Below, in pieces: positions 1 through 59,400 of a DNA stretch of 64,000 nt. Origin of the DNA: Branchiostoma floridae (Eukaryota > Chordata > Leptocardii > Amphioxiformes > Branchiostomatidae); contig NC_049992.1 in assembly GCF_000003815.2 (NCBI RefSeq), positions 5,406,481 to 5,470,480 of the forward strand, given 5' to 3'. The position numbers and the translations under genes were made by a program. The notes below the pieces were generated by a model. The model saw only the letters and a program-made list of their open reading frames with translations. It searched no databases and was not told where the DNA came from. The stretch's first letter is position 1, and each line of letters starts with the position of its first letter.

Positions 1-1639
1 TCCCGACTTATGGTTCCCGACAGCGATAACGCCCGGCCCCGCGCAGCACACCACCCCTTTCAGGTGGAACTCTGGCGGCTGAACAGGGATGGAGGTCACG
101 GGGTAGTCAGGGAAAGTCTCCGCTAGGATCTTCCGACCAGCGTTATTGGACTGTGTCGAGTCACCCACGAAGAATTCTTTTCCTGTCCAAAAGAAAAGAA
201 CATACTGTTAATTGCACAACGGATAACCGCACACTTCTTACCTCCGACCTCTTCCACTCCGTTTTTGAGTTAATATTACCAAGTTTTCTGTTAATTCAAT
301 TGACATTCTGTTGTATAAATAAAAACTAAGTTGATTTATTTTATTTTAATTCACGTATGTAAATCACTGATTTTTAGTTTACCATATGTTTGCTTTCTGT
401 TATTTCAAAGTTATAATTTGTATTGTACATTTCTGTTGCTATTATTTCTGTATAGTTTTAATGTGGACTCCAGGACGACTAGTGTATTTCACTAATGAAA
501 ATCTAAATCAACCAAACCAAACCAAACCAAACCAAACCAAACCAAACCCCCAAATCCCGTGATGGTGCAGTAGGTGGATAACTTCGCTTTGTTGCACCGC
601 TTGGATTATTGTACGAAATATATGCTGGAGCGGCAAATGTGGTGTGCATGCAATTAAGCGGCTTCTACTGTACCGATTAATCTATTATAAGTTATCAACA
701 AACAAACAAACAAACAAACAAGCAAGAAGACAAACAAATGTTCCGATTCGTCATAAAAAAAAAACGACCAGTTTATTGGTTGGATTACAAACCTGTAAAT
801 ATGACGTCACCGCCCTCCAGAGTTGCTCCCTTGTCCCGTATCCTGTGTACCTCCAAACCCGAGTCCTTCAGTAACTTCTCTACACAGTCGACCTGCAAAA
901 CAGCAAGATTTCATTTATTTTATTTTATTTTACCGGGGTAAAAATCATAAACAGACCAATGTACAAAAGAGCATCGGATGCCAAGCATTCAGAATGGCGT
1001 TTTGCATGCCGAAGTTTGACTCCGACTGTTTTTCGTGTTTCTAGGATCCATCTTTTTAATGGTGAAGTTTATTTGCAAGTTCGTGCCCGAGGGCTAATTG
1101 CAAGTACATGGTATAAACATAGTAGATATACAAGTGACAATGGATAGTTATAAACAATTTTCTACTCTAATTCAATAGACGTTTCAAGTTGTAGTAGACA
1201 ATTTTTACCGTTTTCTTTATGTCTGTCGGCCGACATAAAGAAGATGGGACAAAATAGAAAGCCTAATAAAAACAACTAAACAAATATCAGTAAAGAGCCT
1301 AACTTCTGCTTGGAGAGTAGATCTTCTTACCTCTTTCCGACGTACTGTATCTACAGGCCTGGTGACCAGCGCCCTGTTGCCGACCACCACACAGGTGTCC
1401 TCCACAAACGGACAGTCCGGAGTGGACTCGTCCGCCGGCAGAACGGTCATCACGTCCAGTCCCAGGTCCCGCAGGGTCTGGGTGTAACGCGCGTGATCCT
1501 CCCGAGCTTTGACCAGGTCTATGATGTCCTTTGATCGTCTTTTCTTCCACTTGAATGCCTCGGAGTGGTCCCGAATGGAGTCAGGAATCTCGCGAACTAT
1601 GGCCCTGGAATACTGCGGTAGGCTGTGGCCTTCCGCCAT
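1..1639 (-). CDS. DDAH: Dimethylarginine dimethylaminohydrolase (DDAH), 5' three exons, partial at window edge
   Basis: DDAH hydrolyses asymmetric dimethylarginine to citrulline and dimethylamine in the cytosol and so relieves inhibition of nitric oxide synthase. Three exons read on the minus strand: 1639-1331, 892-793 and 182-1, with phases 0, 1 and open at the window edge. The start is the ATG at 1639 (MAEGHSLPQYSRAIVREIP), which matches the family N-terminus. The first exon carries ADESTPDCPFVED, the substrate-binding loop (human ADESLPDCVFVED). The second carries RDKGATLEGGDVIFTG. The third carries KEFFVGD and EFHLKG, whose His matches the catalytic His of the family. The catalytic Cys lies near the C-terminus, beyond the window. 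Donors and acceptors are canonical and phases join without a break. The introns hold CAAA/CCAAA simple repeats and a LINE 3' tail. Family assignment is firm; DDAH1 versus DDAH2 is not resolved. Confidence 0.93.
183..792. repeat. DDAH intron 2 with CCAAA and CAAA simple repeats
   Basis: This intron contains a (CCAAA)n run at about 511-548 and a (CAAA)n run at about 699-720. Nothing else coding is visible. Confidence 0.7.
1060..1215 (-). mobile_element. 3' tail of a truncated LINE-like retroposon in DDAH intron 1
   Basis: The segment CCCGAGGGCTAATTGCAAGT at about 1087-1106 recurs near 27919 and 30957 and, in diverged form, near 63085. At three of these sites it lies at the 3' side of minus-strand reverse-transcriptase C-terminal remnants. 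Only the untranslated tail is visible here. Intron insertion is inferred from the flanking DDAH exons. Confidence 0.5.
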
Positions 1640-2107
1640 CGGCTTGGCTATGATTATCTGTTAAAGATTACGAACGAATATATCCAGTCGGTGCTTCAGT
1701 AGTAACTGCTTTTTGGCGAAAACTTGAATTAAATATTCTGCTTATATTTTGGGGAAATTATGCATAATAATTTGTACCAAAGGGACCGTTATTTGAAGTA
1801 CATACTATTATTTATTAGTTATTAACACTCATAAAACAGTGAAAGTATAGATAACTCAGTGAAAAGTCATACAACCTGAGAGAAACATGAACATGTGGCC
1901 TGCTGAAGGTGAAGTTTTAACCCGTCTTTCTGGCGCAACTAGTTTTCCGTATACCGGAAGTGACAATGAGCAGACCTGTAGCGGTGTCATGGGTCACGAC
2001 TGCAATGCAGGTCAAAGTCGGTAGAGTTAATCGTTGGTGAGGTCTTTTCTCCGGATCCGTGCTGTAACTTGGTCACAGCTTTAGAAGACAAAGGAAAAAA
2101 AAGGAAA

Positions 2108-2207
2108 NNNNNNNNNNNNNNNNNNNNNNNNNNNNNNNNNNNNNNNNNNNNNNNNNNNNNNNNNNNNNNNNNNNNNNNNNNNNNNNNNNNNNNNNNNNNN
2201 NNNNNNN
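2108..2207. other. Assembly gap (100 N)
   Basis: There are exactly 100 N, the usual placeholder length for a gap of unknown size. It is an assembly artefact, not biology. Confidence 0.98.
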
Positions 2208-2439
2208 CATGTTTCTGTTTTTGTTGTTGATGTTTCGGTAGCAAAATCTTTGATGAAATTGCGGCAGAATTGCAGGTCACCGTGACACCTGACTCGACCG
2301 TCACCGTCGTCTTCACAACCCCTACCGATTACTAGTATAACTACATTTAACGTTAACAATGCATCGGGAAGTTTGAAAGTTATGCTGTCTTTTTTTGCTG
2401 ACCACAAATATCCGGAAACACAAGCACCTGAGACAGATA

Positions 2440-2509
2440 AACACACACACACACACACATGTAGACGCGCGCGCGCGCACACACACACACGCACACACAC
2501 ACACACACG

Positions 2510-2548
<39 letters not shown>

Positions 2549-2650
2549 GAAGAAGAAGAAGACACACAGACACACACAGACACGCAAGCACCCACACACC
2601 GACACACACACACACGCTCACACAAGACTGTGACACGCGCGCGCGCACAT
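2440..2650. repeat. Compound (CA)n/(CG)n microsatellite
   Basis: A long CA-rich tract is interrupted by GCGCGC and GAAGAAGAAGAA. It is preceded at about 2397-2420 by GCTGACCACAAATATCCGG, which also precedes the CA tract at 29.8 kb. This suggests a retroposon family with a CA tail. Confidence 0.9.
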
Positions 2651-2815
2651 ATCACAAAGCAATACCTCCACTTTTCATGGAGGTAATTCAACCCACGCGG
2701 AATCAAACTAACATTAAAATGATACATGAATCAATCATAAACTACAAGCTCCGCCCCTCTGATGACCCTTTGCCATACATGGTATGTCCTGGAGTATCCT
2801 GTTACACCTGGTCTT

Positions 2816-3024
2816 TGTTATGCAAATGAGGTGACGTCAGAGGTCAGACGACCGGAAGAAGACCCCACTAGTTTGGGAAGCATCAAAACTTTGGCAGGGT
2901 AGCTGTAGGAAGTGACACATAAAATTACCGCGACCAGTCGTTCTTTTAGACTTGTTGGGCTCAGAAATTGTCTGGCTGTAAGTAGGAGAGGACGGATCGT
3001 TCGTCTTGGAGAAAACTTGGCGGT
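2816..3024 (+). promoter_or_regulatory. Candidate promoter and non-coding first exon of the ephexin-type GEF
   Basis: An octamer ATGCAAAT (2820-2827), a palindromic CRE TGACGTCA (2832-2839) and an ETS-like CCGGAAG (2852-2858) are clustered. About 160 bp downstream, TTGGCG|GTAAGA at 3022/3023 is a strong 5' splice site. The coding exon at 4683 begins directly after a good acceptor two bases before its ATG, so an upstream non-coding exon is required. This cluster is the best candidate seen, but the assignment is inference. Confidence 0.4.
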
Positions 3025-3639
3025 AAGAACGTTTTTTGTCGCTTTTTGTGGGGCGAAATTCCGTGAAACTCGTAGCGTGTCCTAGGAAAAGAGCACCTGA
3101 TGCCAAGGAGCTTGATGCTTGGACAACTTTTGTAACAACATTGCGATGCTTTCGACTTTTTATCGTCTTTTGTATATTAGCTCAGGTCTTTGAAGGGTAA
3201 TGTTTAGCCAGAATTGTTAGATTAATGGCGATTCTTCTATAACTGAGGAAAAAACGGAGGCAAAAGGATTTTTCAGACGACAGCTGAGGGAAACTTCAAA
3301 CGATAATTTGGCCTTCTCCCAGTACATTGAGAGTACACACCGTTTCGACGTACTCTCCTAGAAACTCCTCCAGCAACTCTCAAGCACAAGGAACCAAGAG
3401 TTAAATACCAAGAGAGACTATTGACTCAAATGCAAACCATGTGTTACTCAGCACCAAGAGGCCACGTCTAGCGAAATAATAGACGTTAAACGAGGACAAC
3501 AACAACAACATAATTTGGTGGGGGCGGAATCATGAGTTGCAGGAAAAATGGCGGAAATTAATCTCCAAGCAGATGTCTGTTTTGGTTGGAAGACAAGAGA
3601 CGTTCTCACACATCACGACTTAAGGGTATTAATGGGAGA

Positions 3640-19600: not shown

Positions 19601-19696
19601 CCTTCCAGCTACACTGAAGAGATTGAGAATTCTCACGCTCGCGCCCGCAATCTCAAGTACAGGCACAGGAGACAACTATCCCTCGGAGAGGCCTAG
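4685..19696 (+). CDS. Ephexin-type RhoGEF (acidic N-terminus, DH, PH, SH3), 17 exons
   Basis: Predicted Dbl-family exchange factor that loads GTP on Rho GTPases. Exons: 4685-5470, 7857-8016, 8428-9160, 9849-10013, 10516-10684, 11688-11779, 12233-12411, 12877-13088, 13989-14141, 16526-16655, 16845-16919, 17403-17498, 18027-18169, 18434-18658, 18753-18832, 19149-19253 and 19554-19696; about 1,200 residues. The order DH, PH, SH3 is typical of ephexins (NGEF, ARHGEF5/16/19/26). DH: exons 8-12 ([33 protein letters not shown]). PH: exons 13-15 ([28 protein letters not shown]). SH3: exons 16-17 ([31 protein letters not shown]). EPLYQVY in exon 7 resembles the autoinhibitory helix of the group. The N-terminus is basic/Pro-rich, then acidic with repeated YED motifs. 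From exon 3 on all phases join. Exon 1 changes frame near its end and does not match exon 2 (see findings). Confidence 0.88.
5471..7856 (+). other. Ephexin intron between coding exons 1 and 2
   Basis: No exon is recognised here, although the phase mismatch between exons 1 and 2 leaves room for a small missed one. A TACTAG-type simple repeat lies at about 6073-6112. A TGCAAC/GTTGCA-rich dispersed repeat lies at about 7480-7765 and resembles the GGTGCAC-rich element at 58 kb. Confidence 0.5.
13493..13871. mobile_element. hAT-type MITE (379 bp) with 8-bp target duplication
   Basis: The terminal inverted repeats are CAGGGTTGTAGC and, on the other strand, CAGGGATGTAGC. The element is flanked on both sides by the 8-bp direct repeat CATTACAT (13485-13492 and 13872-13879). 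An 8-bp duplication with CAGGG ends is diagnostic of the hAT superfamily. It lies in ephexin intron 8. Its interior shares AAAATGCAGGAAAT-like segments with the element at 32.6-33.9 kb. Confidence 0.85.
14509..16290. mobile_element. Non-autonomous DNA transposon (1.78 kb) with TA duplication and a nested element
   Basis: The left end CTCTCATGTCCCTAATAAAC at 14509 is inverted at the right end (GTTTATTAGGGACATGAGAG, ending 16290). TA flanks both ends. AATAAACATACCCCCCGG is repeated four times just inside the left end, with related AATAAACGT(A/C)CCGG motifs inside the right end. A second element seems nested: GTACAGTGAAACCTGCC at 14810 onward and TAGCGGTCACC motifs resemble the 37-kb element. 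No transposase frame is seen. It lies in ephexin intron 9. Confidence 0.75.
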
Positions 19697-20357
19697 GCAG
19701 AAAGTTACGGATCACAGCTACACTGAAGAGATTGAAAATTCTCACGCTCGCGCCCGCAATCTCAAGTACAGGCACAGGAGACAACTATCCCTCGGAGAGG
19801 CCTAGGCAGAAAGTTACGGATCACAGCTACACTGAAGAGATTGAAAATTCTCACGCTCGCGCCCGCAATCTCAAGTACAGGCACAGGAGACAACTATCCC
19901 TCGGAGAGGCCTAGGCAGAAAGTTACGGATCACAGCTACATTGAAGAGATTGAGAATTCTCACGCTCGCGCCTGCAATCTCAAGTACAGGCACAGGAGAC
20001 AACTATCCCTCAGAGAGACATAGGCAGAAATTTACTGATCACAGCTACACCGAAGAGATCGAGAATTCTCACGCTCGCGCCCGCAATCTCAAGTACAGGC
20101 ACAGGAGACAACTATCCCTCGGAGAGACATAGGCAGAAATTTACTGATCACAGCTACACCGAAGAGATCGAGAATTCTCACGCTCGCGCCTGCAACCTCA
20201 AGTACAGGCACAGGAGACAACTATCCCTCGGAGAGACATAGGCAGAAATTTACTGATCACAGCTACACCGAAGAGATCGAGAATTCTCACGCTCGCACCC
20301 GCAACCTCAAGTACTGGCACAGAAGACAACTATCCCTCGGAGAGACATAGGCAGAAA
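19607..20357 (+). repeat. 109-bp x 7 tandem repeat derived from the ephexin terminal coding exon
   Basis: AGCTACAC(T/C)GAAGAGAT starts at 19607, 19716, 19825, 19934, 20043, 20152 and 20261, an exact 109-bp spacing. Each unit encodes the end of the SH3 domain and the C-terminal tail ([17 protein letters not shown], then [11 protein letters not shown] or ...GET) and ends with its own TAG. The first unit is the genuine coding end (stop 19694-19696) and the rest lie in the 3' UTR. Because 109 is not a multiple of three, successive copies fall in different frames. Copies 4-7 share GAGACATAGGCAGAAATTTACTGATC-type differences, so the array grew in stages. Confidence 0.97.
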
Positions 20358-23300
20358 ACATGTTTTTAACAATGGGGAATCCTGTTGTCCTAAAGTTTTG
20401 TAATCAAGAACAGACTTTGGTCGTGACACTATTTCTCGACAGATAACAGAAGACAAGATACAAGTTTGTCACTCTACAAGGTACTGTCGGGTTGTGCGGT
20501 TATTTTGCTTCCTAAACGCTTTTTGCTGGTTGGCAAAAGTTACTGATCAAGGAACATCCATGTACCTTCTCAAGTTGTACAGTTTTTTTTGAGGGGGGTG
20601 CGGCTAAAAGATAAAGAAATCATGCAAGATAAATTTAGTGGTGTATTACAAATTATCAAATTGGTGAGGTGTATAGAGGGTGTTGGTCATCGCAAAGGGA
20701 TGGATTGTGCGNNNNNNNNNNNNNNNNNNNNNNNNNNNNNNNNNNNNNNNNNNNNNNNNNNNNNNNNNNNNNNNNNNNNNNNNNNNNNNNNNNNNNNNNN
20801 NNNNNNNNNNNCTTTTAACACTGGGCCCATATATAGTCAGATTTTAGATATTGTATATAAAGAAGAAGGGAAGTTCTTTTTTATTTACAATGCACATTTA
20901 CACATTGTAAGTATATATTCAATCAACCTGGTAGCAATGGACACATTTTTCATGGAAGAAAACATAGACCATGCTCATGTAATATATGTAAATTTTGTAT
21001 AACTTAAAAATTCACCATTTTATCAAAATTGGGCTTGACTATGTTTGCTTAAACTTTTAAGAGTGTGTTGACCCTTATCAAATTCACTGCCTTACTGTTT
21101 CTACTCTTCTCATTTCCAGTCATTTAGTTATCTGTTACTGGAGTTTGTAGTACATGTACATTTGTCCCCCCCCCCCCCCCAACAACCTGGAGGTCAAGGG
21201 ACTAGGTAGGTAGGTAGGTACACTTGGGGGAGATGTCAGAGCTGTCTTGAAGGTAGTGTTCCAAAAGTAATATCTCGACCCCAAAAAATTAAAGGAATAT
21301 TCCTTAAGAATGAAGCAATAAAGACTCAGTGAGGCAAAATTTCAGTTTCTGTCAAAAGCGATGTATTATGCAGATAAGATATGTGACTCAGCATTTAATG
21401 GATCACAATATGCAGAAAGAACAAATGTTTGTATTAGATTCATTCCTATGTTGCATTTCCCATTGCACATTTGACCGATTGCTGGCATTTCTTAGCCTTT
21501 TGCAGGGGAATTATACAGTCACACAAAAATTAATTGACAAGAGGTTCAGCTCATATACAAAGTAGCTTTCAGTTGCACCTGTTTCAATAAGTAATGCCTT
21601 TTGAAATTCACAGTTACTGTATTATTGAGTGACTTCTCTCCTTTTTAAACTGTGCAATGTTAATTGCTTGACAATGGCTTCACAAAAGTACAAGTTAGAC
21701 TATCCAAAGTCTATGAATGTCATTTTATTTTTATTCTACACCAGCTGATGATGGTATAATTGATTTTATTACTGTACTATTGCCTTCTGTTGCAGTCCAT
21801 ATTATTTTAAACATGATTTGTCGTTTTGCTTTTGGAACAATACACATTAATCAGACAATGTTAGTTTGATTATGTATGGTTTATTCCCTATTGATGGAAT
21901 GATGCTATGATATTTTATAGCAGGATGTTGTAATTAAGTCTATTTTTAGTTTATACACTGTAAAACGTTTTAAACTTCTTTTGTTTCTAATCACCAGTTG
22001 TGTAGATAGACTTTAATTTAACATCTAATTTTTGGGGTGTTTAATCAAAACTTTGATTTATGGGGGGGAAGGCGTAAGGGAATTAAAAAACACAGACTGG
22101 AAACAACAACATATACAGCTGTATTCTGTTTATCTTTGCGCACTGTACATAATTGTATATGAATCAAGTTTCTGCAGTTCTTACAAGTTAAAACAGAATA
22201 CTGTAAAACATACTGAAGATGAACAATTGCTTGACTCTGCTCGAGCTGTTTTCGAAAGTATTTGCATTACGATATGTAATTATAATGTTATCAGATTGAA
22301 TGTGATTCCCATTTTATTACTGACGTGTGTCATTCTGTAAGTTTGATTTTTTTTAAATATCCAACATAAATTTTTTTCATACAAAAAGGAACATTTGTGG
22401 GTCCTTGCTATGACATACAATACTCCCCCCCCCCCCTGTGTAAAATGATAATAATTCAGAAGGGGCAATACTGTTTTGTTTGGGACAGGGGCTTAGGCCA
22501 TTATTTACGGTCATCATGATCAAATAGATATTTTTCTGGTCTGACTTAAATGTTTGTTTAATGCTGCACATATTTTGTCCTTTTTCTGCTGCACATGCAC
22601 TTGGAGTACTCCTTATCATGTTTTTGTGATTGGAGTATAACCATTCATGTTATCTTATAGTACATGTACACTCAATGAAGCAAAAGATCTATTAAACTAT
22701 GACATCGACAAAAGGAACACAAGTATACATCAAAATTTGGAACAAAGTAATGAAGAGATTTTATTTCAGATTGGCACGGTACACATTCAGAGTACTATTG
22801 TCTGCTATTTCACATGACCATTGTTCCATTTTTAAATGATCAACTACTGTGACGATTGGCGCTCAGGAATATATGCATTGTAATACGTTTTCATTGTTTT
22901 AATCAATTTTTTTACTAAAACCGGTCTTTTTGTTTCTTTTTGGCTAAGAATTCTCGTGCAATATGATGCTAAAGTTTATGATGATTTTAAGGATTATGAC
23001 TGAGTCGGCAACTTCAACAAGTTGATATATTAAATTACTAGTACTACAAACTGGAATTATTTAGTTGCTTTAACATTTTTTACTTCATTGAATACTGCAA
23101 TGGATCTGTGATTATACGATCGATGTAATGATGAATAACTAGAGGGAACTCTGTATATGTCTAGAGAATATAGTACATCGAAGAAACTGTTATATTTTGA
23201 AAGAACATAATGCCTGAGTTTTAAACGGAAAGTTGGATAATCTGTTCGCGGCCCGTCATATTCTCTACATCAAACTATTCTACGTGACGTCACTTCCTCC

Positions 23301-23874
23301 TCTCTGTGAATATATTTTCTGAAGATGACGCCATCAAGTGCTCCTTGCACTCCAACAGGCTGTAGGCAGATAAAAAAGAAATGAATCTTCTATGTCATCA
23401 CAAATATTACTATCAAATCATCTGGGTTAAAAAGAAAATCCGACACAATTCCACCTATATATGGTTTGATACACCCCGCACCAAGTCTGCAAAATGTATG
23501 CAAGTATGTATTATGGTACATAGCAATTCATTGTATAAAGAATTCTGAAAAATCGCAAGTGTATCTCCTCAGCAGTTTTGAAATAACATTTAAGATGGTT
23601 TCAAACTACGAGTAGTTATATGTGCATTAACGTGACAGCATCTAAACAATAATTGCTGACTTCATTTGACATTCATTATATCCTAATAACTATATCATCA
23701 CTGCAAGCTTTCTCTCACAGGTTAAATTACTGCAAATGGGAAAATAAGATTGTAACAGACTGTTAAGCGCAATTACAGTATGAATTCTTGATAAAACTCG
23801 TGTCCTCTATAACCAAAATAACCCCCAGCTATTTCTAACTTGAAGATAAAAAAATGATGCTGAAAGTTAGTTAC
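20358..23874. other. Ephexin 3' UTR and convergent intergenic region
   Basis: This AT-rich sequence has no recognised plus-strand gene. A candidate AATAAA lies at 21317-21322. Poly-C runs occur at 21167-21180 and about 22424-22435. On the minus strand a good acceptor (TCTGCCTACAG) at about 23361 could begin a 3' UTR or alternative terminal exon of the small gene to the right. Confidence 0.5.
20712..20811. other. Assembly gap (100 N)
   Basis: There are exactly 100 N, a placeholder for unsequenced DNA. It lies just past the tandem array, where assembly is likely to be difficult. Confidence 0.98.
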
Positions 23875-24668
23875 CTATGAAATCACGCACCCTATCTTAG
23901 CGTTGATGCTGAAACCAGGGAAGAAGAATCAATTAACAATTTGAGTTTGCAGAATGATATTTGAGGCCATGAATTAAGGTAGAGTGCGTAGATGGGTAAC
24001 ATGTCTGTGCAATTTTTTTTATCACAAGACATTGAACACTTTACATTCAACACAGTTTACAAGCATTCGACTAGACGAGGACTACAACAACAAATGTTTA
24101 ACAGACTCAAATACACACAAACACACTCAAAAGCACACACTTAAACTCACACACACAGTCAAATGCACTCACAAACACACACACACACATGTACATGCAC
24201 ACACTGAAAAACACACTTAAACACACACACACCTGTTGTCATCATCTGCGGGGTCGGAAAAGGTCTTGGGTCCTCCTTGAGCCGCTGTTTCCTTGCGGAG
24301 ACCCTCCATGTCCACTGCAGCAACAACAGCAGTATCCTCCACATCTTTGTCAGTCACAACCTGTTTGTTTAACACGGGGAAGAAAATAGGACATGATTTG
24401 CTTGTATCGTTTGCTGGAATAGAAATCTATTTATTGTAACTCTGGTCGACTCTTTGCCAACAAGGTATATGCAAAGGCACTAGTAAAGAAATATGAAATT
24501 TGGATACTGTAACAGTGCATTCAATAGCTCATATCTAGACATGTTGCTTTACTTGGCTTACAATCAACAAGAATATGATGTTAAGCTATCAAAGTGCAGT
24601 ACTCCAGTTCGTACACAAGGTGAAAAGGTTCTTACAAATCTTACCTCAATTGAATTCTCGTTGCCCAT
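23875..24668 (-). CDS. Small protein (61 aa) with N-myristoylation consensus and C-terminal CaaX box
   Basis: I do not recognise this gene. Three minus-strand exons join in phase: 24668-24645 (donor GAG|GTAAGA), 24360-24233 (donor AACAG|GTGTGT) and 23908-23875 (acceptor CCCTGGTTTCAG, stop TAG). The product starts MGNENSIE: Gly2 and Ser6 fit the N-myristoyltransferase consensus MGxxxS/T. It ends KIGCVIS, and CVIS is the CaaX sequence that is farnesylated in rod transducin gamma. The middle is acidic and polar (VVTDKDVEDTAVVAAVDMEG, TFSDPADDDN) with no domain, so a disordered membrane-tethered peptide is inferred. The ATG has a strong context (GCAATGG). An in-frame ATG 12 codons upstream has a weak one and would hide Gly2. 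It is not a G-gamma subunit, because the NPF segment is absent. A CRE/CCAAT promoter lies about 140-160 bp upstream. Confidence 0.55.
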
Positions 24669-24785
24669 TGCTTTTTGTCGCTCTGGCAGACGGATCTCAA
24701 ACATTCGCCAAGTTGTCTCAGTCCGATAACGGTTGTCTCTGCTCGCAGAATGATCTTCCAGCGGTGGACACACGGTGATCAGTGG

Positions 24786-25110
24786 CCTGACACGCAGGTA
24801 GATAGATGACGTGGCAAACACTGATTGGTCGTTTGAGAATAGTTTGAACGTTTTTCACGTCTAGTGCGTGATATGTGCGTGATAGACGCATGTGGGAAGG
24901 GTAGGTAGGGCGAGGATCTCTGGCGCCGACGTGGGAAAATTGTGCCTCTTTCGTTCTATAAGCTAAAAAGCCCATTGAGAATATTTGTATAGATGAATTA
25001 TAACTCCTAAAGGTAAAATATATCTATTTTTCCTCAGTGACAATGCAGATTTTGCTTTCTGGTAAGAAGTACAGTAAGATTAACAGTACATAATTCTAGG
25101 ACTTATTATA
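24786..25110 (-). promoter_or_regulatory. Candidate promoter of the small lipidated-protein gene (repeat copy 1)
   Basis: Read on the minus strand, a CCAAT box (24824-24828) and a CRE-like CCACGTCA (24808-24815) sit about 140-160 bp from the ATG. A GGCGCC motif lies further upstream. The whole block recurs at 25819-26135 in the same orientation. Promoter function is inferred from motif type and position. Confidence 0.45.
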
Positions 25111-25818
25111 GGGTTAAGAACACACAAACACACCGATTCTACATTATTATGTTTTACCCCAGTATTGAGTTTTCAGGATAAGGCCACAGCAAGTAAATTA
25201 TATGGATCCGGATGACGTCCTATGCAAATTGCAAAAATAAGAAGATAGGGCGTAAAACAAGATGGCTAAATTGCTTAGAATAGAAGGGACAAACCATGGT
25301 AGCACAGCCACAACCCATTCATTCCTGCATTGCAATAAGTGCACTAGTGTAGTAAAGACGTCTCAAGTAACAGTATGGTAGACTGGTATCACTTCCCAAG
25401 TTGGTAACTACAATGATGACTTCCATACTGGTACCATTTTTATAACTATCCAGCTAGTTTCACTTCAACAACAACAGTCAAGGCTACCTCACTAATGTGA
25501 CTTCTTCAAGTACAATCATTAGGCCACAGTACATTTTCTTATTTTCGTACTTTCTAGTCATGTTGACCATCCCCGAATGAGAAAAATGTTGTTGTTTTAA
25601 TCAGGCGAAAATTAATGAGCGCGCTGATGCCATTCATAAAATTGACATGCTGTGGCCTTAGCGTGGAAACAAAGTAGCAGTTATGTTAGCCTTGAAATCA
25701 GGAATCGGGGGAGTTAATGGAGGTAGCGACTGTCAAATGTCGAAATAAAATCAGCAATTTTCAGGAATTTTATGGTGGGGATAGCTGGCAGAAAAAAGAC
25801 AGCATATAGTGATAGTGA

Positions 25819-26135
25819 CCTGACACGCAGGTAGATAGATGACGTGGCAAACACTGATTGGTCGTTTGAGAATAGTTTGAACGTTTTTCTCGTCTAGTGC
25901 GTGATATGTGCGTGACACACGCATGTCGGAAGGGTAGGAGAGCGAGCATCTTTGGTGCCAACGTGGGAAAATTTGTCGTGTTTCTTTCAAAGCCGAAAAT
26001 CCCGGTGAGAATATTTGTATGGATGGATTATAACTCCTGAAGTAAAACGTGTGTATATTTTCCTCAAGAATGGGGTAAAACTTTGCAGAAGTTTATTGCT
26101 ACAATCGATATAGTACATAATTCTGACATAGTATA
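25819..26135 (-). repeat. Second copy of the promoter block, without a following exon
   Basis: The sequence from CCTGACACGCAGGTAGATAG onward matches copy 1 at an offset of 1033 bp, with the CRE and CCAAT motifs intact. The similarity stops at the gene-proximal edge, and no MGNENS-type exon follows within the next several hundred bases. It could be an upstream alternative promoter or a dead duplicate. Confidence 0.7.
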
Positions 26136-32342: not shown

Positions 32343-35300
32343 ATGTTAGAACAGGAGAATCAACAAGAGAAGTCTGGTGATAACGGCACCAACCCGCAGC
32401 CTGGTCCATCCGCACCCCGATATCTCCAGATGGAAGACCACTTGTGGGAGTATCCGAGGGACGAGGGTGAAGCGTGCTACGATCAGCACTACGAACAAGG
32501 GGAGACTTACGATTACAAAGATCCCGAGGATGTGAACTTTCCAGACACGGCCGAAGGTATTTTTAGATGCAGCATAACGTACAGATAAAATACAAGCAGG
32601 AATACTCTCCAAACAGAGGTTGAGTCGCGTAGATATATGGGGGCCCCAAAGCCCTTTTCCGTAGAGCGTAATCGGCGGTTTTAATTCTACGTACTACGTA
32701 GCGGGACCGCTTGAATTCAACGTAGAGCGTAATCGGGGCATTTTGCGTCGAGCGATATTGGCTTCCTTAATTTAACATATTACGTAGAAGCTAACCGGAT
32801 TTTACCGTAAAACGTAATTCATATCAATTTTTCGTAAAGCGTAATCAAAGTTGCATTAAACTTAACTTGTCTACCGGCAAATTTTACTCGCGAAAATGCA
32901 GGAAATTGCGTTTCAAAGGGTCCAGATTTCAAAATTTCGCCGGACCTTCCTTGCGATGGCTTACCCCTTCGGCATTGGACATTTTGAAAATATGTTGCGG
33001 GAGCGTCGCCCCCCAACTAGTAGAAATTTTTTTACCGAACTTAGTTAACAAGCAAAATGTGCCCCTTAATAAATGCAGGGAATGGCATTTCAAAGGGTAC
33101 GGGTCAAGATTTCAATTTTTCTCCGGGCGCCGGGTGGCCCTTGGGCTGGCGACGGCTTGGGCCTCTGGTGCTCACGACTCGTCGCCCTCAAAAACGTTTC
33201 TCTGACAGAAATGTCATTACATTGAGCATATGGTCTGCCAGCAAAATTTATCCCTCAAAATGCAGGAAATGGTGTTTCAGAAGGTACAAGTTTCCAAATT
33301 TTCCCGTACTTACCTTGCGACAGTTCGTCCTTTCGGCACTCGAAATCTGAAAATGATGTTTTGGGGCGTTGCCCTCAATAACTTAAAACCATGTGAATTT
33401 CTAATTGGAATGCTATTTAACTTAGCTCAGTATAGTCTGTGAGCAAAATGTGCCCTTTAAAATGGCGTTTCAGAGGGTCAAGATTTCACAATATTCCCGG
33501 GGGAGCATGCCCCCGGACGCCCTAGGATTGTCGCGCCTCCACTTTCGGTGATACAAGTGCTGAAAATTACGTCACATAATAAATTTGCTGTCACCGCCTC
33601 TGGCCAGCAAGACGTCTAAGTTAAGTTTGAATCTTGTTCATGGAATTATCAGTTTTGTTTAGATCTCCTCTTCACGTGTTCTGCCGTCGGCGGATTTCAG
33701 CCAAAGACGATAATTTAATGATTTGCATAATGCATTATGAAATTTCTTAATTTAGCGTAGAGCGTAATAAAGTGTCTATAATTTAGCGTATTACGTAGCC
33801 GGCCCTCCCGAATTTAGCGTACAGCGTTGTCGGTACCCCCCCCCCCCTTGGGGGCCCTCATATATTGTAGTAGTCGGAAAATTAACAGGCGCGCTCCTCT
33901 TACCTCTGCCTCAAACACTGCATGATCGGATTTACCCAATTGGTAAATGCAATGTATAGCCGGGTAAAGTTTAGATTTACCAAGGATTTATCGACATTTA
34001 CTCGCCGATTAAGGTGCCATTTACCTGCATGGTATAGCGGGGTATGTTTGCCTGGTTTACCCGTATTTACCAGGTTCGTGTAAATATACGTTTACCGAGA
34101 TTTAGCGTACGAGGTATTTCTCATGTATTTTGATGCTTTTTGATTACTGTACTGTTTTTCTATTACTATACTGTTTCTCGATTACTGTTTTATTTCTTGA
34201 TTACTGTACTTTTTCTTGATTACTGCACTGTTTCTTGATTACTGAACTGTTCTTGATTACTGTACTCAGTATGATTCTTGATTACTGTACTTTTTCTTGA
34301 TTACTGCACTGTTTCTTGATTACTGAACTGTTCTTGATTACTGTACTCAGTATCATTCTTGATTACTGTACTTTTTCTTGATTACTGTAGTGTTCCTTGA
34401 TTACTATAGTGTTTCTTGATTACTGTACTGTTTCTCGATTACTGTAGTGTTTCTTGATTACTGTACTGTTTCTCGATTACTGTAGTGTTTCTTGATTACT
34501 GTACTGTTTCTTGATTACTTTACTCTTCTTGATTACTGTACTAAGTCTGATTCTTGATTATTGTAATGTTTCTTGATTACTGTACTGTTTCTCGATTACT
34601 GTACTGTTTCTTGATTACTGTACTGTTTCTTGATTACTGTACATGTTTCTTGATTACTGTACATGTAGTGTTTCTTGATTACTGTAGTGTTTCTTGATTA
34701 CTGTACTTTTTCTTCATTACTGTACTCAGTCTCTGATTCTTGATTACTGTGCTGTTTCTTGATTACTGTACTGTTTCTTGATTACTGTACATGTAGTGTT
34801 TCTTGATTACTGTACATGTAGTGTTTCTTGATTACTGTACATGTACTGTTTCTTGATTACTGTACATGTAGTGTTTCTTGATTACTGTACTGTTTCTTGA
34901 TTACTGTACTGTTTCTTGATTACTGTACATGTACTGTTTCTTGATTACTGTACATGTAGTGTTTCTTGATTACTGTACATGTAGTGTTTCTTGATTACTG
35001 TACATGTAGTGTTTCTTGATCACTGCAGGGTTTCTTGATTACTGTACTGTTTCTTGATTACTGTACTGTTTCTTGGTTACTGTACATGTAGTGTTTCTTG
35101 ATTACTGTACTGTTTCTTGGTTACTGTACATGTAGTGTTTCTTGATTACTGTACTGTTTCTTGATTACTGTACTGGTTCTTGATTACTGTACTGGTTCTT
35201 GATTACTGTACTGGTTCTTGATTACTGTACTGTTCCTTGATTACTGTACTGTTTCTTGATTACTGTACTGTTTCTTGATTACTGTACTGTTTCTTGATTA

Positions 35301-38300
35301 CTGTACTGTTTCTTGATTACTGTACTGTTTCTTGATTACTGTACTGTTTCTCGATTACTGTTCTATTTCTTGATTACTGTACTTTGTCTTGATTACTGTA
35401 CTGTTTCTTGATAACTGTACTGTTTCTTGATTACTGTACTGTTTCTTGATTACTGTACTGTTTCTTGATTACTGTACTGTTTCTTGATTACTGTACTGTT
35501 TCTTGATTACTGTACTGTTTCTCGATTACTGTTCTATTTCTTGATTACTGTACTTTGTCTTGATTACTGTACTGTTTCTTGATAACTGTACTGTTTCTTG
35601 ATTACTGTACTGTTTCTTGATTACTGTACTGTTTCTTTATTACTGTAGTGTTTCTTGATTACTGTAGTGTTTCTTGATTACTGTACTGTTTCTTGATTAC
35701 TGTACTGTTTCTTGATTACTGTAGTGTTTCTTGATTACTGTAGTGTTTCTTGATTACTGTAGTGTTTCTAGATTACTGTAGTGTTTCTCGATTACTGCTC
35801 TATTTCTTGATTACTGTACTTTTTCTTGATTACTGCACTGTTTCTTGATTACTGAACTGTTCTTGATTACTGAACTGTTCTTGATTACTGAACTGTTCTT
35901 GATTACTGTACTGTTTCTTGATTTCTGTACTGTTTCTTGATTACTGAACTGTTCTTGATTACTGTACTGTTTTTGATTACTGTACTGTTTCTTGATTACT
36001 GTAGTGTTTCTTGATTACTGTAGTGTTTCTTGATTACTGTAGTGTTTCTTGATTACTGTAGTGATTCTTGATTACTGCACTGTTTCTTGATTACTGTACT
36101 GTTTCTTGATTACTGTACTGTTGCTTGATTACTGTAGTTTTTCTTGATTACTGTGTTGTTTCTTGATTACTGTACTGTTTTTTTTATTACTGTACTGTTT
36201 TTTTTATTACTGTACTGTTTCTTGATTACTGTACTGGTTCTTGATTACTGTAGTGTTTCTTGATTACTGTACTGTTTCTTGATTACTGTAGTGTTTCTTG
36301 ATTACTGTAGTGTTTCTTGATTACTGTACTGGTTCTTGATTACTGTACTGTTTCTTGATTACTGTACTGTTTCTGGATTACTGAACTGTTTCTGGATTAC
36401 TTCACTGTTTCTGGATTACTGTACTGTTTCTTGATCAACAGCAGAAATGGCAGGAGACAGCATAATGTTGAAACAGGAGGATCAACGTGACATAGGTGAT
36501 GCCAGTTCCGGTAACAGTACCGACCCGCACCCTGGTTCACCTAAACCCAGATACCTTCAGGTGGGAGATCACATGCTGGAGTACCCGACAGACGAGGGAG
36601 AGACGTGCTACGATCAGCATTACGAGCAGAGGGAGCCGCACGTGTATGAAAAACCCGAGGATGCTAGCTCTGCGGGCATGGACGGTGGTAAGTTGAGATA
36701 CAACATAAAATGCATAGATATAAAAACAATAGGTGGTGTAATAGAGAAAGTACTAATAATATACAATGATTCAATTATCGAAGATATAAATGACAGAAAA
36801 AATGTTGCATTCATGATCATGTGAACAAGAATCTTGGGTACCCCGCTGCAAATGGTATTGAATACTGATATGGCCAAAAGACGTAAGGATTGATGTATTT
36901 ATGGTAAAATAGGTCTTGGGTTCAAATCTTACCTTCGAACTTTATGTATTTATTTTTTTAGTTTTACCACATTACATTGCATCATGTAGCAGAATAAGTT
37001 AGATCATAGTGAATATTTGGCTTTACTGCAAGTACAGTCAAACCTGCCCGAGCGACCACCTCTTCTCAGCGACCACCTGGCTATTTCGACCGCTTTTTCT
37101 CGGTTCCGATTTTTTTTCATTGACGTAAGCGTTAAGCGACCTTTTCTCAACGACCACTTGGCCAACTCGACCTGTCGACCGCGACCGGCCCAAATTGGGA
37201 CCCATAACGACCGCATCATTTTTAAAATTGAGGTTTTCATCGATTTTTGATGATAACTAGCGCGATTTTGTGGCGGAATCGGCCGGTTTACGTCGGATTT
37301 TGACTGCCATTACAATGTTATGTTTAGAATAAAGATGGCGGCGGTCAACGTAGTTTTTTTTTAAAATCTATATTAACATAAAGTGAACGAATGCTGAAAC
37401 GTATATAGCCTCATACTTTTTAAAGAAAAATCTGTGTAGCTCATACCTTTCTCAGTAAGATCTGTTTGAGTGCTTTTGCAACTGTACTGTACATTCACCC
37501 GTGGGTAAGTACGCTATCGGGACGTACCGGCATCGAATTCGAAAGGTGCACCGTAGTTATTTCAGATACGGCGATCAAGAACACAGCGACGCATAAAGGC
37601 TTGTATGGTAACTGACAGCATCAAAGTTCCCTAACTGTCTAAAACGTTAGTGTGCAAATATTGAGCTTTAAAACACTGTATCGAATAAAAGCTCGGGGTT
37701 AAATCTACAGTTTACAGTGTGCGTGTTGTATTTGACATTAAAGACCTCGCTTCTTTGCGTGCGTGCAGTGTTCTTGCTATTTGCCTTTAAACACAACGGA
37801 AACCATTTATACCTTGTATCGGGCATGTTTTGAGTCGATACTCTTCTCAGCGACCACCTGTCCAAATCGACCGACTTTACCGGTCCCACTGGTGGTCGTC
37901 TTGTGCAGGTTTGACTGTAACTGAATACTGTAAATGTATTAAAGTTCGCGGGGATTTAATTTCGCGGTAGCGGGAAAAAGGACTTTTCGCGGTTGATTTA
38001 AGTTCGCGGTAACACCATAGACTGCAATCTAATATCATGATAGAATAATATTCGCGGTGGTTTTAAATTCGCGGTGAAGTGGTCACCGCGAAAACCGCGA
38101 ACATTAATCCACCGCGAACATTTCTGCATTTACAGTATGCCATTATGTATCTGACAACGTATTTTAAAGTAGAGCCGGAGAAAAACACATTTGAAATAAA
38201 CGACTGAAAGTTGATATGCAATTTACTTTTGTCTGATACAGTACTGTTATGCTGTACCACAAAACTTTTCATAATTGCAAAATGGCCTGAATACCATTTT

Positions 38301-41300: not shown

Positions 41301-43693
41301 ACGTCTATATAAAGAGGGGAATTCAGGCTATGATATCTTTACTTGTGATTTATGAGTTAGCACGTTACGGGGCTTAATAAGCCATGGAGATAAAGAGAAC
41401 AGAGAGTTTTCATTCCCGACAGCAAGTTACGGGCTAGCCGTTGGGACAAAGAACAAAGAGTTTTCATTCCCAGCAGTCTGTTTCGGGGCTAGCCATGATT
41501 TTTCCGCTCTTTGTGTTTGAACTTGACACTGTAGGTTACATTTGTGCGGGCACGGCACGTGCGCTGTATCTCTAGAACGTAGATAAGTTTTCTGATGGAC
41601 CATGTCTTTCAAGGGTACCCACCCTAACGTTAGCATCTGCAGTAAAGAGTCTCTATGGTGCTGTCATATTTGATTTATTACACTATCAATGGAAAAGGCA
41701 AAGGTACATCATGCATATGCCATTTCGAATCAAATAATCAATGTATTGAATATAGTTTTCATGAAAGTTCTAAATCTGCTGAGATAATAGACATACTATT
41801 AATAGCATTCATGTGCCATTTAATGAGCCCTCTTTAACTGCTAATAAGAAAATTGTCGCTGTAGTAGCCGTCTTGAAAAGCTGTATTTTTAGTTTGTTTC
41901 AGATTACCTTTTCTCTGTTTTCCATGTAGTTGATGGCGGCTGGTCTGACTGGAGCGCATGGTCTGACTGCAGCGTGACGTGTGGAGTCGGTACGCAGACT
42001 CGGGACCGAAGCTGCACCAATCCGGCACCAACTGACGGCGGGGCGGAGTGTGATGGAGATACTGAGGAGACACAAGAGTGCGACTCGGGAGTTTTCTGTC
42101 CAGGTAACTTTAAGTTCCATTGTTGTTCATGTGTTTGGATTTCTAAGCTGTTATCTTTGATTTATTACATTATCAATGGAAAAGGCAAAGATACATCATG
42201 CATATGCCATATCGAATCAAATAATCAATGTATTGAATATAGTTTTCATAAAAGTTTTAAATCTGATGAAAACATTGAGATGATAGACATACTATCAATA
42301 GCATTCATGTGCCATTCAATGAGCCCTCTTTAACTGCTAATAAGAAAAATCAGAATTGTCGCTGTAGTAGCCGTATTGAAAAGCTGTATTTTTAGTTTGT
42401 TTCAGACTACCTTTTCTCTGTTTTCCATGTAGTTGATGGCGGCTGGTCTGACTGGAGCGCATGGTCTGACTGCAGCGTGACGTGTGGAGTCGGTACGCAG
42501 ACTCGGGACCGAAGCTGCACCAATCCGGCACCAACTGACGGCGGGGCGGACTGTGATGGAGATACTGAGGAGACACAAGAGTGCGACTCGGGAGTTTTCT
42601 GTCCAGGTAACTCTAAGTTCTATTGCTGTTATAGTACTTGTATTTTTGGCGACGCCTCAGGGGCGGAAGCATTCTTTACAGTATTACGATCGCTTTGAAA
42701 ATATTTCAAAAATTGCACGAATGCATTCCATAGGGAATTTTTTTTGAGGTAGCCTTTGCTTGTTTGGTCTTTTGTCGGAACAGAAACGGCCTTTGTTTGT
42801 TGGTATCTTGGAGCCACGTGTAATGTCTTATTTTGCTTCTTTCAGCACAAAAAAATTGTCACAATGTTTTAGTGCGTCTTCTGTTCCTGGAAAATGAGTT
42901 ATTTGTTAATATTACAGCTCTAAATCCCTATTTTGGTGTTCTTTGAGAGAAATAGGATCACTATATTAAAGCTTTTATGCTTCAAATATGTTTTTTGTTT
43001 CAGCCGTGAACACAATCGTATTTTGAATTTGCTGAATATGATTTCAAACAATGCTTATTTTTAAGATGTTTGTAGAAAGCGGAAAAGGCTATGACTGTCC
43101 ACATTGAAAGAAACTAAGACAAACGATCCACACAATTGTCTATGCCTTTATTCCATCATCATTCACATCAAACACACGTTTGTCACATCTCAAGACACAA
43201 ACATCGAGAATATGAAGACCTTGCAGACTGCACATGGCAAAGACGTGGTGTTCTTACAACTTTATAACTGGATTTACTTCAGAATCTATAACAATGACCC
43301 TTGAAAATACATTCAAGCAAAACACTTTTTTTGTAATTCTGTTGACATTGTAACAAATTGTTTGCAAACATATTAGTACCACAAAATTACTGGAACTATA
43401 GAGTGATTGACTTCCGTTTCGTTGAGGCGATAGATTTTGTGCATATTATAGCTACTGTTACCGCAGTCCAAGTTTAACTCTTAATTTCTTGGGACTGTTG
43501 TTGTTGTCACGTAGAGCTGAAAGAAATAATATAGAGCAGATTAGGAATACTTAACACATGTTGTCAGACCCGAACATCCTACACAGTGTGGTAACAGTAT
43601 TCTTAGCCTTGGATGGTAGGAATTTATGCACATTACCAAACACCAAGTTTAAGTCCATACCAAAGTACATTACCTGGATATCCTTAATTTAAT

Positions 43694-56407: not shown

Positions 56408-59400
56408 ATGGAGGAATCTGGTAACATCCTACGCGTGGCTGTTTTCGAGGTAAGACATTTATTGATGAACCATTTAAGAATAAGTAATATTGATTCGAAG
56501 ATGATATTTGATATACCGTGAAGATACCAGTCTTTTGTTGAAGAAGCCCCTGGCTGTGAGTTTATGTGGAGGCACTTGATGGGTGGTTTCGTCTTCTGCC
56601 TCACTCCCCGATTGGAGCTATCGGTTTTATGGCTCAACTGATTATAGTGACTCGAATTGCCATGTTATCTTTGGTATGAAGACTGCAAATAAGTAGAATT
56701 CCTCCCATGAAGGGCTGTAGGACACTTACTGTGTTGAAATTTTGACTCTGAGGCTTTACAATATTTTTCAGTTATGAACTTAAAGCTCTGTAAAAAGCCT
56801 ATTGAAAGCCTCTGTAAAAGGCCCATAACTAGTTTTGTGAAGAACAGAGGATTGCTTGTAACAATATTAATTAATTATTATTTTTTGCTAAATTTGTTAC
56901 AATCTTTGAAAATCTATTGTAGCTTAATTTTCACAATAAAAATTTACACATAAACTATTGCTTTGTCGCAAATATTATCTTTTATAATAAAACTTATCAT
57001 AGTTACTTTATTACATGTTCTACGTTGAACCTTGACGTAATATCGCATAGTCCTCTATTTGTATAGCAGCTTCTGGGAATTCATCGGAATGAGATTTACT
57101 TGTTATCATATTACTTGTTTGTACTTTAATTATGTACATAATATCTATTTCTTCAATACAGAGACATCCATTTGTGGTAAAAGCATCTAGCCCTATAGGA
57201 AATGAGTGGGTTGGATTCTGCATCAGTCTTTTGGAAGAGTTGTCCAAGATTATGAACTTCAACTACGAACTGTACGAAACTCCGGATGGGATTTCCGGAA
57301 ACGAATTGCCTGACGGGACCTGGTCAGGGGTCATTGGTGAACTAACTTCCGGGGTGAGTTTATTTGTCTTCAAATATATGACATATTGAGTGGTGGAAAA
57401 AATAAACAAAATCTCTAATCTATAATAGTGTTGCAATCGATCCGCTGTATGCAACCATACTACAAAATGTTGATGCTCCTAAACTGTAGGGTAATATGGG
57501 ATAAGACATTTGACTTTGTTTCTCGTATTTGTTTGCCTTTATGTGTCAAATGTAAATGATTGAAAACGAAATATGTTGGTAAACAAGCCTTAACAAGTTT
57601 TACATTTAAAAGTTGGTCATCTAATAGCTCCAGGAAAACATCGAACAAAAATGACCTAAATTGACCTTCTGTATGCAAAACACCTATCTTCATTACATTA
57701 TTACCAACGAAAATTAGAGCTTCATTTTGTAATGAACCTTTACTTGTAGAAGGCTGACCTGGCCGTCTCGGCATTGTCCATTACGTCACTGCGGGAGAAA
57801 GCAGTGGACTTCACCAAACCGTTCATGGAGTACGGCAATGTACTGGTAATGCGCAAACCATCGGAACAGGATAGGGACTTGCTCGCCTTTGTGCACCCTT
57901 TCCAGTGGAAGGTATGTAACCATCGACACACCCTGAATGTGGGTTATCGTTAGGTTAGGGTTAGGCTAGGGTTAGGGTTAGGGTTAGGGTTAGGGTTATT
58001 TTAGGGTTTGGGTAAGCAGGGCTCGAAATTCATTTTTGGGATTAGGTGCACTGGTGCACCCAGCTTGAAAGATTGGGTGCACCAAAATGTTTTGGGTGCA
58101 CCACTTAAATTCAAGTTATAACCTAAAAATAACACTTAGTTACAATCTGTCAAATTCTTAAACAAGTACCATGACAGACATTTTTATTATCTTTCTAACA
58201 CTTAGATGTCAAGAATATGATGTATAATTGTATACTTTGATATGATATCTTTACATACATAAACCTAACAAAATATAAACTACAGAAAATCATTGGATGC
58301 ACAGCTCCAATTTTGGTTGCACCTGGGTGCACATGCACCAAGTATTTCGAGCCCTGGTAAGGGTTTCCGTTTGGGTTATCTTAGGGTTATGGTTATGGTT
58401 ATGATAGGGTAAGGTAAGTTAGGTTGGGGTAAGGGTTGGGTTAGGGTTATGGTTAGGTTAGGGTCATTTAAGGGTTAGGGTTATCGTAGGGTTATCGTAG
58501 GGTTATGGTAATGATTATGGTTATGGTAGGGTTAGGTTAGGTTAGTTTCGGTTAGGGTTAGGACTGGGTTGGGGTTAGGGTTGGGTTAGGGTTAGGGTTA
58601 GAGATGGAGGCAGTACTGTGATCGTTGGGATTTTACAGGTTGCTCAACGAGATGCATATAACTTTGTTACCATTTTTCAATAAGGTGTTTTCTTGCGTTT
58701 TAAATCATACTTTGACAACTGAAATCACATTCCAATCATGACATCAAGTCACACAAATACAACTTCGGTCATTGTACGGTTGCTTAGCGAAAAAGTGTTA
58801 TAGGAAAATGTCTATCTAAATTCCAAGCTGTTCAGATTGTTGGAATATACTTTTAATTTGGTGCACTTAGACTCAATGACTTCACCAAGCTTTTTGAGAT
58901 CCCGTTATTAGTTTGATTACCTAAAGAGCGTCAATGAGAATCTGTTCATGTCCGGCAGGTGTGGCTGTGTATCGCAGTCAGCATGTTCACGGTGGGGATC
59001 CTGCTGTTCCTGACCAGCAGACTCAGGCTGAAGATGAACGCCGGGGACAGACATGCCGACAACGACAGGGCCTTCAACCTCAGGAACAGCCTCTGGTTCG
59101 TCTACTGGTCCATGATGCGGAAAGGTGAGCTCTCATTTTTTGTTGACAGCAAATTTGAGCTTCTGGTGCTTTATAGGACACTCTTCTTCAAATAACTCAT
59201 TGATAACAAGAGGCGATCATCTCCAATGTCATTGCATTTTGTCTGTATGGCTGGTTTAAATACTTTCTTTCCAGGGCGATATCTTAAATTAGAAAGCAAA
59301 TGTCAGGAAATGTCTGGTAATATAGAATGTAGTTACCATGGCGTATATTCTAGTATAAAGGCACAAAAAGTCATGAAGCTTTTACATTTATTTGTTTACG

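Follow-up and report, generated by a model that had tools for sequence, protein, structure and literature searches.

A small amphioxus gene with an N-myristoylation-type start and its probable place in a family of cut-down cytochrome c1 derivatives

According to a report on holocytochrome c synthase (HCCS; PMC8112865), this enzyme needs helix 1 together with the CXXCH motif; it attaches haem to peptides of this kind without releasing them, and is inhibited by them. Synthetic helix-1/CXXCH peptides stay attached to the human enzyme and block the maturation of cytochrome c in vitro, and positive charge in helix 1 is described there as important (PMC8112865). N-myristoylation has been described for the human mitochondrial proteins HCCS and NDUFB7 (PMC10752898) and likewise for MIC19 and MIC25 (PMC6235283), and in yeast the myristoyl group aids the import of Mic19 to the intermembrane space (PMC6362269).

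A locus of Branchiostoma floridae may be compared with these systems. It lies in what we call the window, that is, the whole stretch of 64,000 nucleotides analysed here, for which an earlier note, made from the sequence alone, had described a spliced peptide with a lipid signal at either end. The observation is in part confirmed and its interpretation in part supported: the N-terminal signal stands, whereas the C-terminal one probably does not. We favour, with some confidence, the view that the window gene represents one diverged member of a family derived from cytochrome c1 (CYC1) and equipped with an N-myristoylation signal. The original finding is itself of less interest than the family to which it leads.

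Exons and alternative frames of the window gene

Three minus-strand exons (24668–24645, 24360–24233 and 23908–23875) join in phase into a frame of 61 amino acids beginning MGNENS and ending CVIS-stop, as had been stated for it. Exon 1 (24645–24668) encodes MGNENSIE, has the donor GTAAGA and has paralogous first exons at other loci. Exon 2 (24233–24360, 128 nt) is the probable counterpart, by DNA profile, of exon 3 of the paralogues, and exon 3 (23875–23908; INAKIGCVIS-stop) would be that of their CXXCH exon; it contains an alternative donor after 23891. A donor follows directly upon the CVIS stop codon (TAG/GTAACT), and a further exon begins at 23359. This fourth exon (22716–23359, minus strand) is homologous to locus L017, would be 3' UTR in the CVIS reading and carries AATAAA at 22765; 22716 is the limit of detected homology and not a mapped 3' end. 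Of the gene as originally drawn, the 61-residue frame is exact; the 3'-UTR exon and its poly(A) signal had been overlooked.

The start codon at 24668 is preceded by a probable 5' UTR (24669–24780, minus strand), homologous sequence being present, in a search, at four of the five other places that bear the upstream block described below. It contains an in-frame ATG at 24704, 36 nt upstream and in weak context, which is absent from the other aligned copies. Were this ATG used, it would bury Gly2 of MGNENS and prevent acylation.

Other splice forms are possible from this locus. Joining the alternative donor, 18 nt into exon 3, to 23359 gives a frame of 79 amino acids without a CaaX box, and an exon-skipping form has 73. 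We rank both below the CVIS form because the donor aligned with that of L017 is TAG/GTAACT and because the exon at 23359 corresponds to one which is largely 3' UTR in L017 and L013. The 61-residue peptide and the 73-residue form gave no Pfam match, and the window peptide none in NCBIfam. The 79-residue form gave one glycosyltransferase match below the Pfam cut-off (E=0.077) and one PDB match (E=0.68), both of which we take as chance.

A dispersed family and its likeness to cytochrome c1

Parts of the window gene recur at at least eight other loci in the same 513-Mb assembly, at least nine with the window, both counts being lower bounds. Five loci carry paired names (L007/L013, L008/L017, L006/L016, L004/L014 and L005/L015; the second name is used below), and L026, L027 and L028 were found through their third exon. 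It is on this paralogy that the claim of a real spliced gene, which we consider likely, now rests, and membership of the window gene in a dispersed MGxxxS/CXXCH family is highly probable.

An N-myristoylation consensus consists of an MG start with a small residue at position 6, and proline at position 3 is disfavoured. The first exons read MGGTTSHFSTQ in L013, MGAKKSVFATQ in L017, MGPCKSTMKFGTQ in L016, with proline at position 3, and MGSGEST in L014; that of L015 begins with CTG instead of ATG. MGxxxS, proposed originally for the window gene as an N-myristoylation signal, is accordingly retained in five of the six readable first exons (the window and four paralogues). The Gly2 codon shows silent changes among the copies, Ser6 is encoded by AGC in four of them and by TCA in the window, and the triplet of residues after MG is different in every copy. 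By inspection, the pattern is of the kind that would be expected if an N-myristoylation signal were under selection. Searches upstream of L026, L027 and L028 yielded no first exon; the stretch searched is partly N in the first two and all N in the third.

Exons of the paralogues were read by eye. The L017 protein is MGAKKSVFATQ/SNAQDMTGKKK/LFTAASAAAVGMVTVKAAPMGAMVCAYSSPDEA(G)/IDAGYKTYKQVCAACH, closing with S-M-stop when splicing joins it to the following exon, so that it could end CHSM, or with R-stop if unspliced; that of L013 is MGGTTSHFSTQ/QNAQGPNPDYTEE/LFSTAAAAAVGKVTVKAAPVGAGLCAYSSPDET(D)/INKGFKLYVQKCSQCH-stop. L026 ends in SIDKGYKVYLGNCAACH-stop and L027 in SIDKGYKVYLGNCAACHDGGGN-stop, and L028 has SIDKGFKVYLQKCANCH followed by a donor. 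CXXCH thus stands at or shortly before the end of the protein in all five other copies for which the last coding exon was found. No such exon was found for L014, L015 or L016, in the last case over 19 kb searched; the sequences of L014 and L015 show decay or gaps. Among six copies, identity is 89% in family exon 3 and 79% and 61% in its flanks, and point estimates of dN/dS lie between 0.24 and 0.89 in all ten pairs of five copies.

Two peculiarities of the copies may be recorded. In L028 (about 1872–3531) intron 1 and the small second exon of the family occur as several tandem copies, mostly spaced by about 295 bp. The 3' exon of the window (about 23285–23305, minus strand), L013 (about 2379–2394), L026 and L027 holds GGAAGTGACGTCA, an ETS-CRE-like composite, and L017 has GGAAATGACGTCA; a promoter-like site is unexpected in such a location.

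The end of these proteins resembles the haem-attachment exon of CYC1. L017 matches Pfam cytochrome c1 (PF02167) at E=1e-4 (22.5 bits, gathering cut-off 22.8, hence below it) and L013 at E=0.077 (13.1 bits); other sub-cut-off Pfam matches of L017 are Cytochrome_CBB3, Cytochrom_C_2 and RT_RNaseH. L017 also has matches among the PDB cytochrome c1 chains, beginning at E=0.0022, and in NCBIfam there are sub-cut-off cytochrome matches (best E=0.007 for L017 and 0.014 for L013). When four paralogues were combined into a profile, it recovered the CYC1 segment at E=8.6e-7, the best of 1,000 shuffles (full sequence) reaching E=2. CYC1 of the same genome (L029) reads ...MSTGKKV/LFGTLGAV...LDHA(S)/..., with a phase 0 intron ahead of LF and a phase 2 intron ahead of IRRGY, and the introns of the family have the same phases at the matching places. 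Family exon 3 by itself is not significantly like the CYC1 exon (454 of 2,000 shuffles were as good), and for this reason its origin from CYC1 rests on the intron position and the LF start.

From these likenesses the last coding (haem) exon is very probably derived from CYC1. The paralogues share with the haem-attachment exon of CYC1 the segment S-IxxGYxxYxxxCAACH(SM) and the surrounding intron phases. Unlike CYC1 they have no CYC1-like first exon, starting with MGxxxS instead, and their reading frames close with CXXCH or shortly beyond it, without the full haem domain or the C-terminal membrane anchor; the window copy is without CXXCH as well. The earlier statement that no family can be assigned no longer holds. 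As judged from sequence, the members of the family would be shortened derivatives of cytochrome c1 whose first exon, encoding MGxxxS, is new; a first exon with its own promoter block and 5' UTR would have been joined to a last coding exon from cytochrome c1. It was not among the matches listed in a search of the literature on amphioxus lipid signals, cytochrome c1 truncation or duplication, and dual lipidation, whose coverage excludes most subscription journals.

Divergence of the window copy, its CVIS ending and possible roles

Aligned with L017, the window exon from 23359 scores 120 (shuffle mean 22.2, best shuffle 38); its score against L013 is 55 (best shuffle 34), and AATAAA at 22765 falls in the shared stretch, aligned with both. 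Exon 2 matches a DNA profile of the six paralogue exons (family exon 3) with E=1.2e-4, in an alignment that takes in the donor and has a 9-nt insertion; none of its pairwise DNA scores (25, 29 and 20) exceeds the best of 500 shuffles. Its identity to the paralogues is 56–59%, and the changes by codon position (9/16/16, 10/14/14 and 12/14/15) show no third-position excess, that is, no sign of constraint at the protein level. The window protein gives no significant match to the family protein profile (E=42), and a protein search of the 513-Mb assembly with that protein returned only the window locus at E<=0.001.

Exon 3 shares the start TTTCAG/CATC with L017, after which there are a 15-nt deletion and two 1-nt gaps; TGC GCC GCT TGT CAC of L017 is then aligned with TGC GTG ATT TCA TAG of the window. 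Because this alignment alone is weak (score 28 against a best shuffle of 31, with different gaps against L013), the assignment of CVIS-stop to the place of CXXCH rests on order, splice sites and flanks. Most likely, then, CVIS-stop would stand where CXXCH stood, following deletion and frameshift, and would not be a feature of the family.

Could the window copy simply be dead? As an unprocessed pseudogene it would retain a recognisable promoter and 3' exon while its coding exons drift, the open frame and CVIS being accidental. The loss of CXXCH and of the helix through deletion and frameshift would agree with this, as would the lack of a third-position excess and the state of the sister loci L014 and L015. 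It is nevertheless a rather unlikely reading: the ATG, Gly2 and Ser6 are kept, the 61-codon frame is open, splice sites are kept where they can be aligned, the exon 2 indels are multiples of three in the profile alignment, and AATAAA is kept.

We return to the window gene as a diverged member of the family. If transcribed, it would be translated from 24668, the Met would be removed and N-myristoyltransferase would acylate Gly2, giving a small, acidic, membrane-attached peptide. We regard a myristoylated product as evenly balanced, judging from the sequence; the estimate was set at this level and not slightly higher because there is no sign of protein-level constraint. With helix and CXXCH lost and a CVIS end gained by frameshift, the product might be a lipid-anchored acidic peptide serving in another role without haem function, or the copy may be decaying.

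A doubly lipidated membrane tether, myristoylated and farnesylated, was the idea behind the earlier note, which considered that both terminal signals would seldom coincide by chance; CVIS would then be a gain of function in the window copy. Both sequences are indeed present, MGxxxS recurs in the paralogues, and the window copy shares a C-terminal CVIS with farnesylated CaaX proteins. The coincidence is nonetheless not improbable. When third-order-Markov windows of 64 kb were simulated under permissive splice rules, 100 of 300 (both strands) held a three-exon model running from MGxxx[S/T] to CaaX, 577 of 173,045 simulated models being of this kind. The real window has 36 among 1,654 models on the minus strand, all starting at 24668 (24 ending in CVIS and 12 in CKLC or CSIQ), and none among 479 on the plus strand. 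A smaller earlier null of six one-strand simulations, with slightly different intron, acceptor and CaaX rules, had given none in 2,012 models; it was too small and is superseded by that of 300 windows.

Nor do the relatives favour a CaaX function. None of the five paralogues with a readable last coding exon has a canonical CaaX end, and the alternative donor removes CVIS. Since CVIS-stop most likely replaces CXXCH after deletion and frameshift, the CaaX box is private to the window copy among the copies read, which distinguishes it from farnesylated CaaX proteins, and the second lipid signal is probably an accidental product of the decay of a haem-attachment site. Functional farnesylation of the window product seems unlikely to us, and the doubly lipidated tether as a whole decidedly improbable. 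The window copy would serve as an example of a lipid-signal ending created by frameshift, and of why two short motifs need a check against paralogues or other species before they are read as function.

The intact copies invite comparison with the HCCS peptides. A myristoyl group on L013 and L017 could aid entry to the mitochondrial intermembrane space, as with yeast Mic19, and the C-terminal helix and CXXCH might there be presented to HCCS. With Mic19, HCCS and NDUFB7 these proteins share an N-terminal glycine signal on a small protein, the likeness drawn here being one of signal. L013 ends in NKGFKLYVQKCSQCH-stop, which resembles the 16-mer KGKKIFIMKCSQCHTV of PMC8112865. The 16-mers, however, are synthetic peptides and continue for two residues beyond the His with which L013 and L026 terminate, and the paralogue helices have fewer lysines.

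By analogy, natural haem-attachment mini-proteins from cytochrome c1, N-myristoylated, ending in CXXCH and located in the intermembrane space, might tune cytochrome c and c1 maturation by occupying HCCS or as haem-carrying, microperoxidase-like peptides, the window copy being a derivative in which a frameshift from CXXCH to CaaX swapped haem for a second lipid anchor. We consider this improbable. The decoy part is weakened because L013 and L026 end at the His and because positive charge in helix 1 matters (PMC8112865), and the window copy could not itself act as an HCCS peptide, helix and CXXCH being lost. An animal gene family which apparently encodes a helix-1/CXXCH module behind an N-myristoylation signal would still be a natural counterpart of the synthetic peptides.

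Upstream module and other features of the window

The start at 24668 has G at -3 and G at +4, and ACGTCA and CCAAT occur upstream, as had been pointed out in support of a gene; the CRE/CCAAT block containing them is, on closer view, a repeated module. Sequences related to this promoter-like block (24781–25047, minus strand, 267 bp) occur with 74–78% identity at five places elsewhere, on contigs C1, C10 and C18, and a tandem copy has 87%. The latter, at 25814–26047 (minus strand), about 1,033 bp further upstream, is partial and without the 5' UTR part. Within the block, 125 bp recur with 96% identity at a distance of 1,033 bp upstream, and direct repeats were recorded as D2 (96%), D4 (83%) and D5 (78%).

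Between the two copies of the block lies a segment of about 500 bp flanked by inverted repeats of 39 nt (25169–25207 and 25632–25670, 82% complementary). With its terminal inverted repeats this segment, 25169–25670, is MITE-like; similar segments in opposite orientation adjoin L005 and L006. A chimaeric origin of the window gene, in which a cassette of promoter and exon, mobile or duplicated, had landed before unrelated exons with no derivation from CYC1, would suit the dispersed block, its tandem partial copy and this segment with its relatives, but it is very improbable indeed, the 3' exon being homologous too and in the same order and exon 2 matching the family profile.

Elsewhere in the window there are a tandem array of 6.9 units of 109 bp (19606–20357, 96% matches), one of 116 units of 19 bp (34140–36435) and interstitial telomere-like GGGTTA/TTAGGG arrays (57941–58601). 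An exon-like frame at 1217–1660 (minus strand) matches eukaryotic DDAH (PF19420, E=2.6e-5), and another at 41893–42333 (plus strand) matches thrombospondin type 1 (PF00090, E=6e-15).
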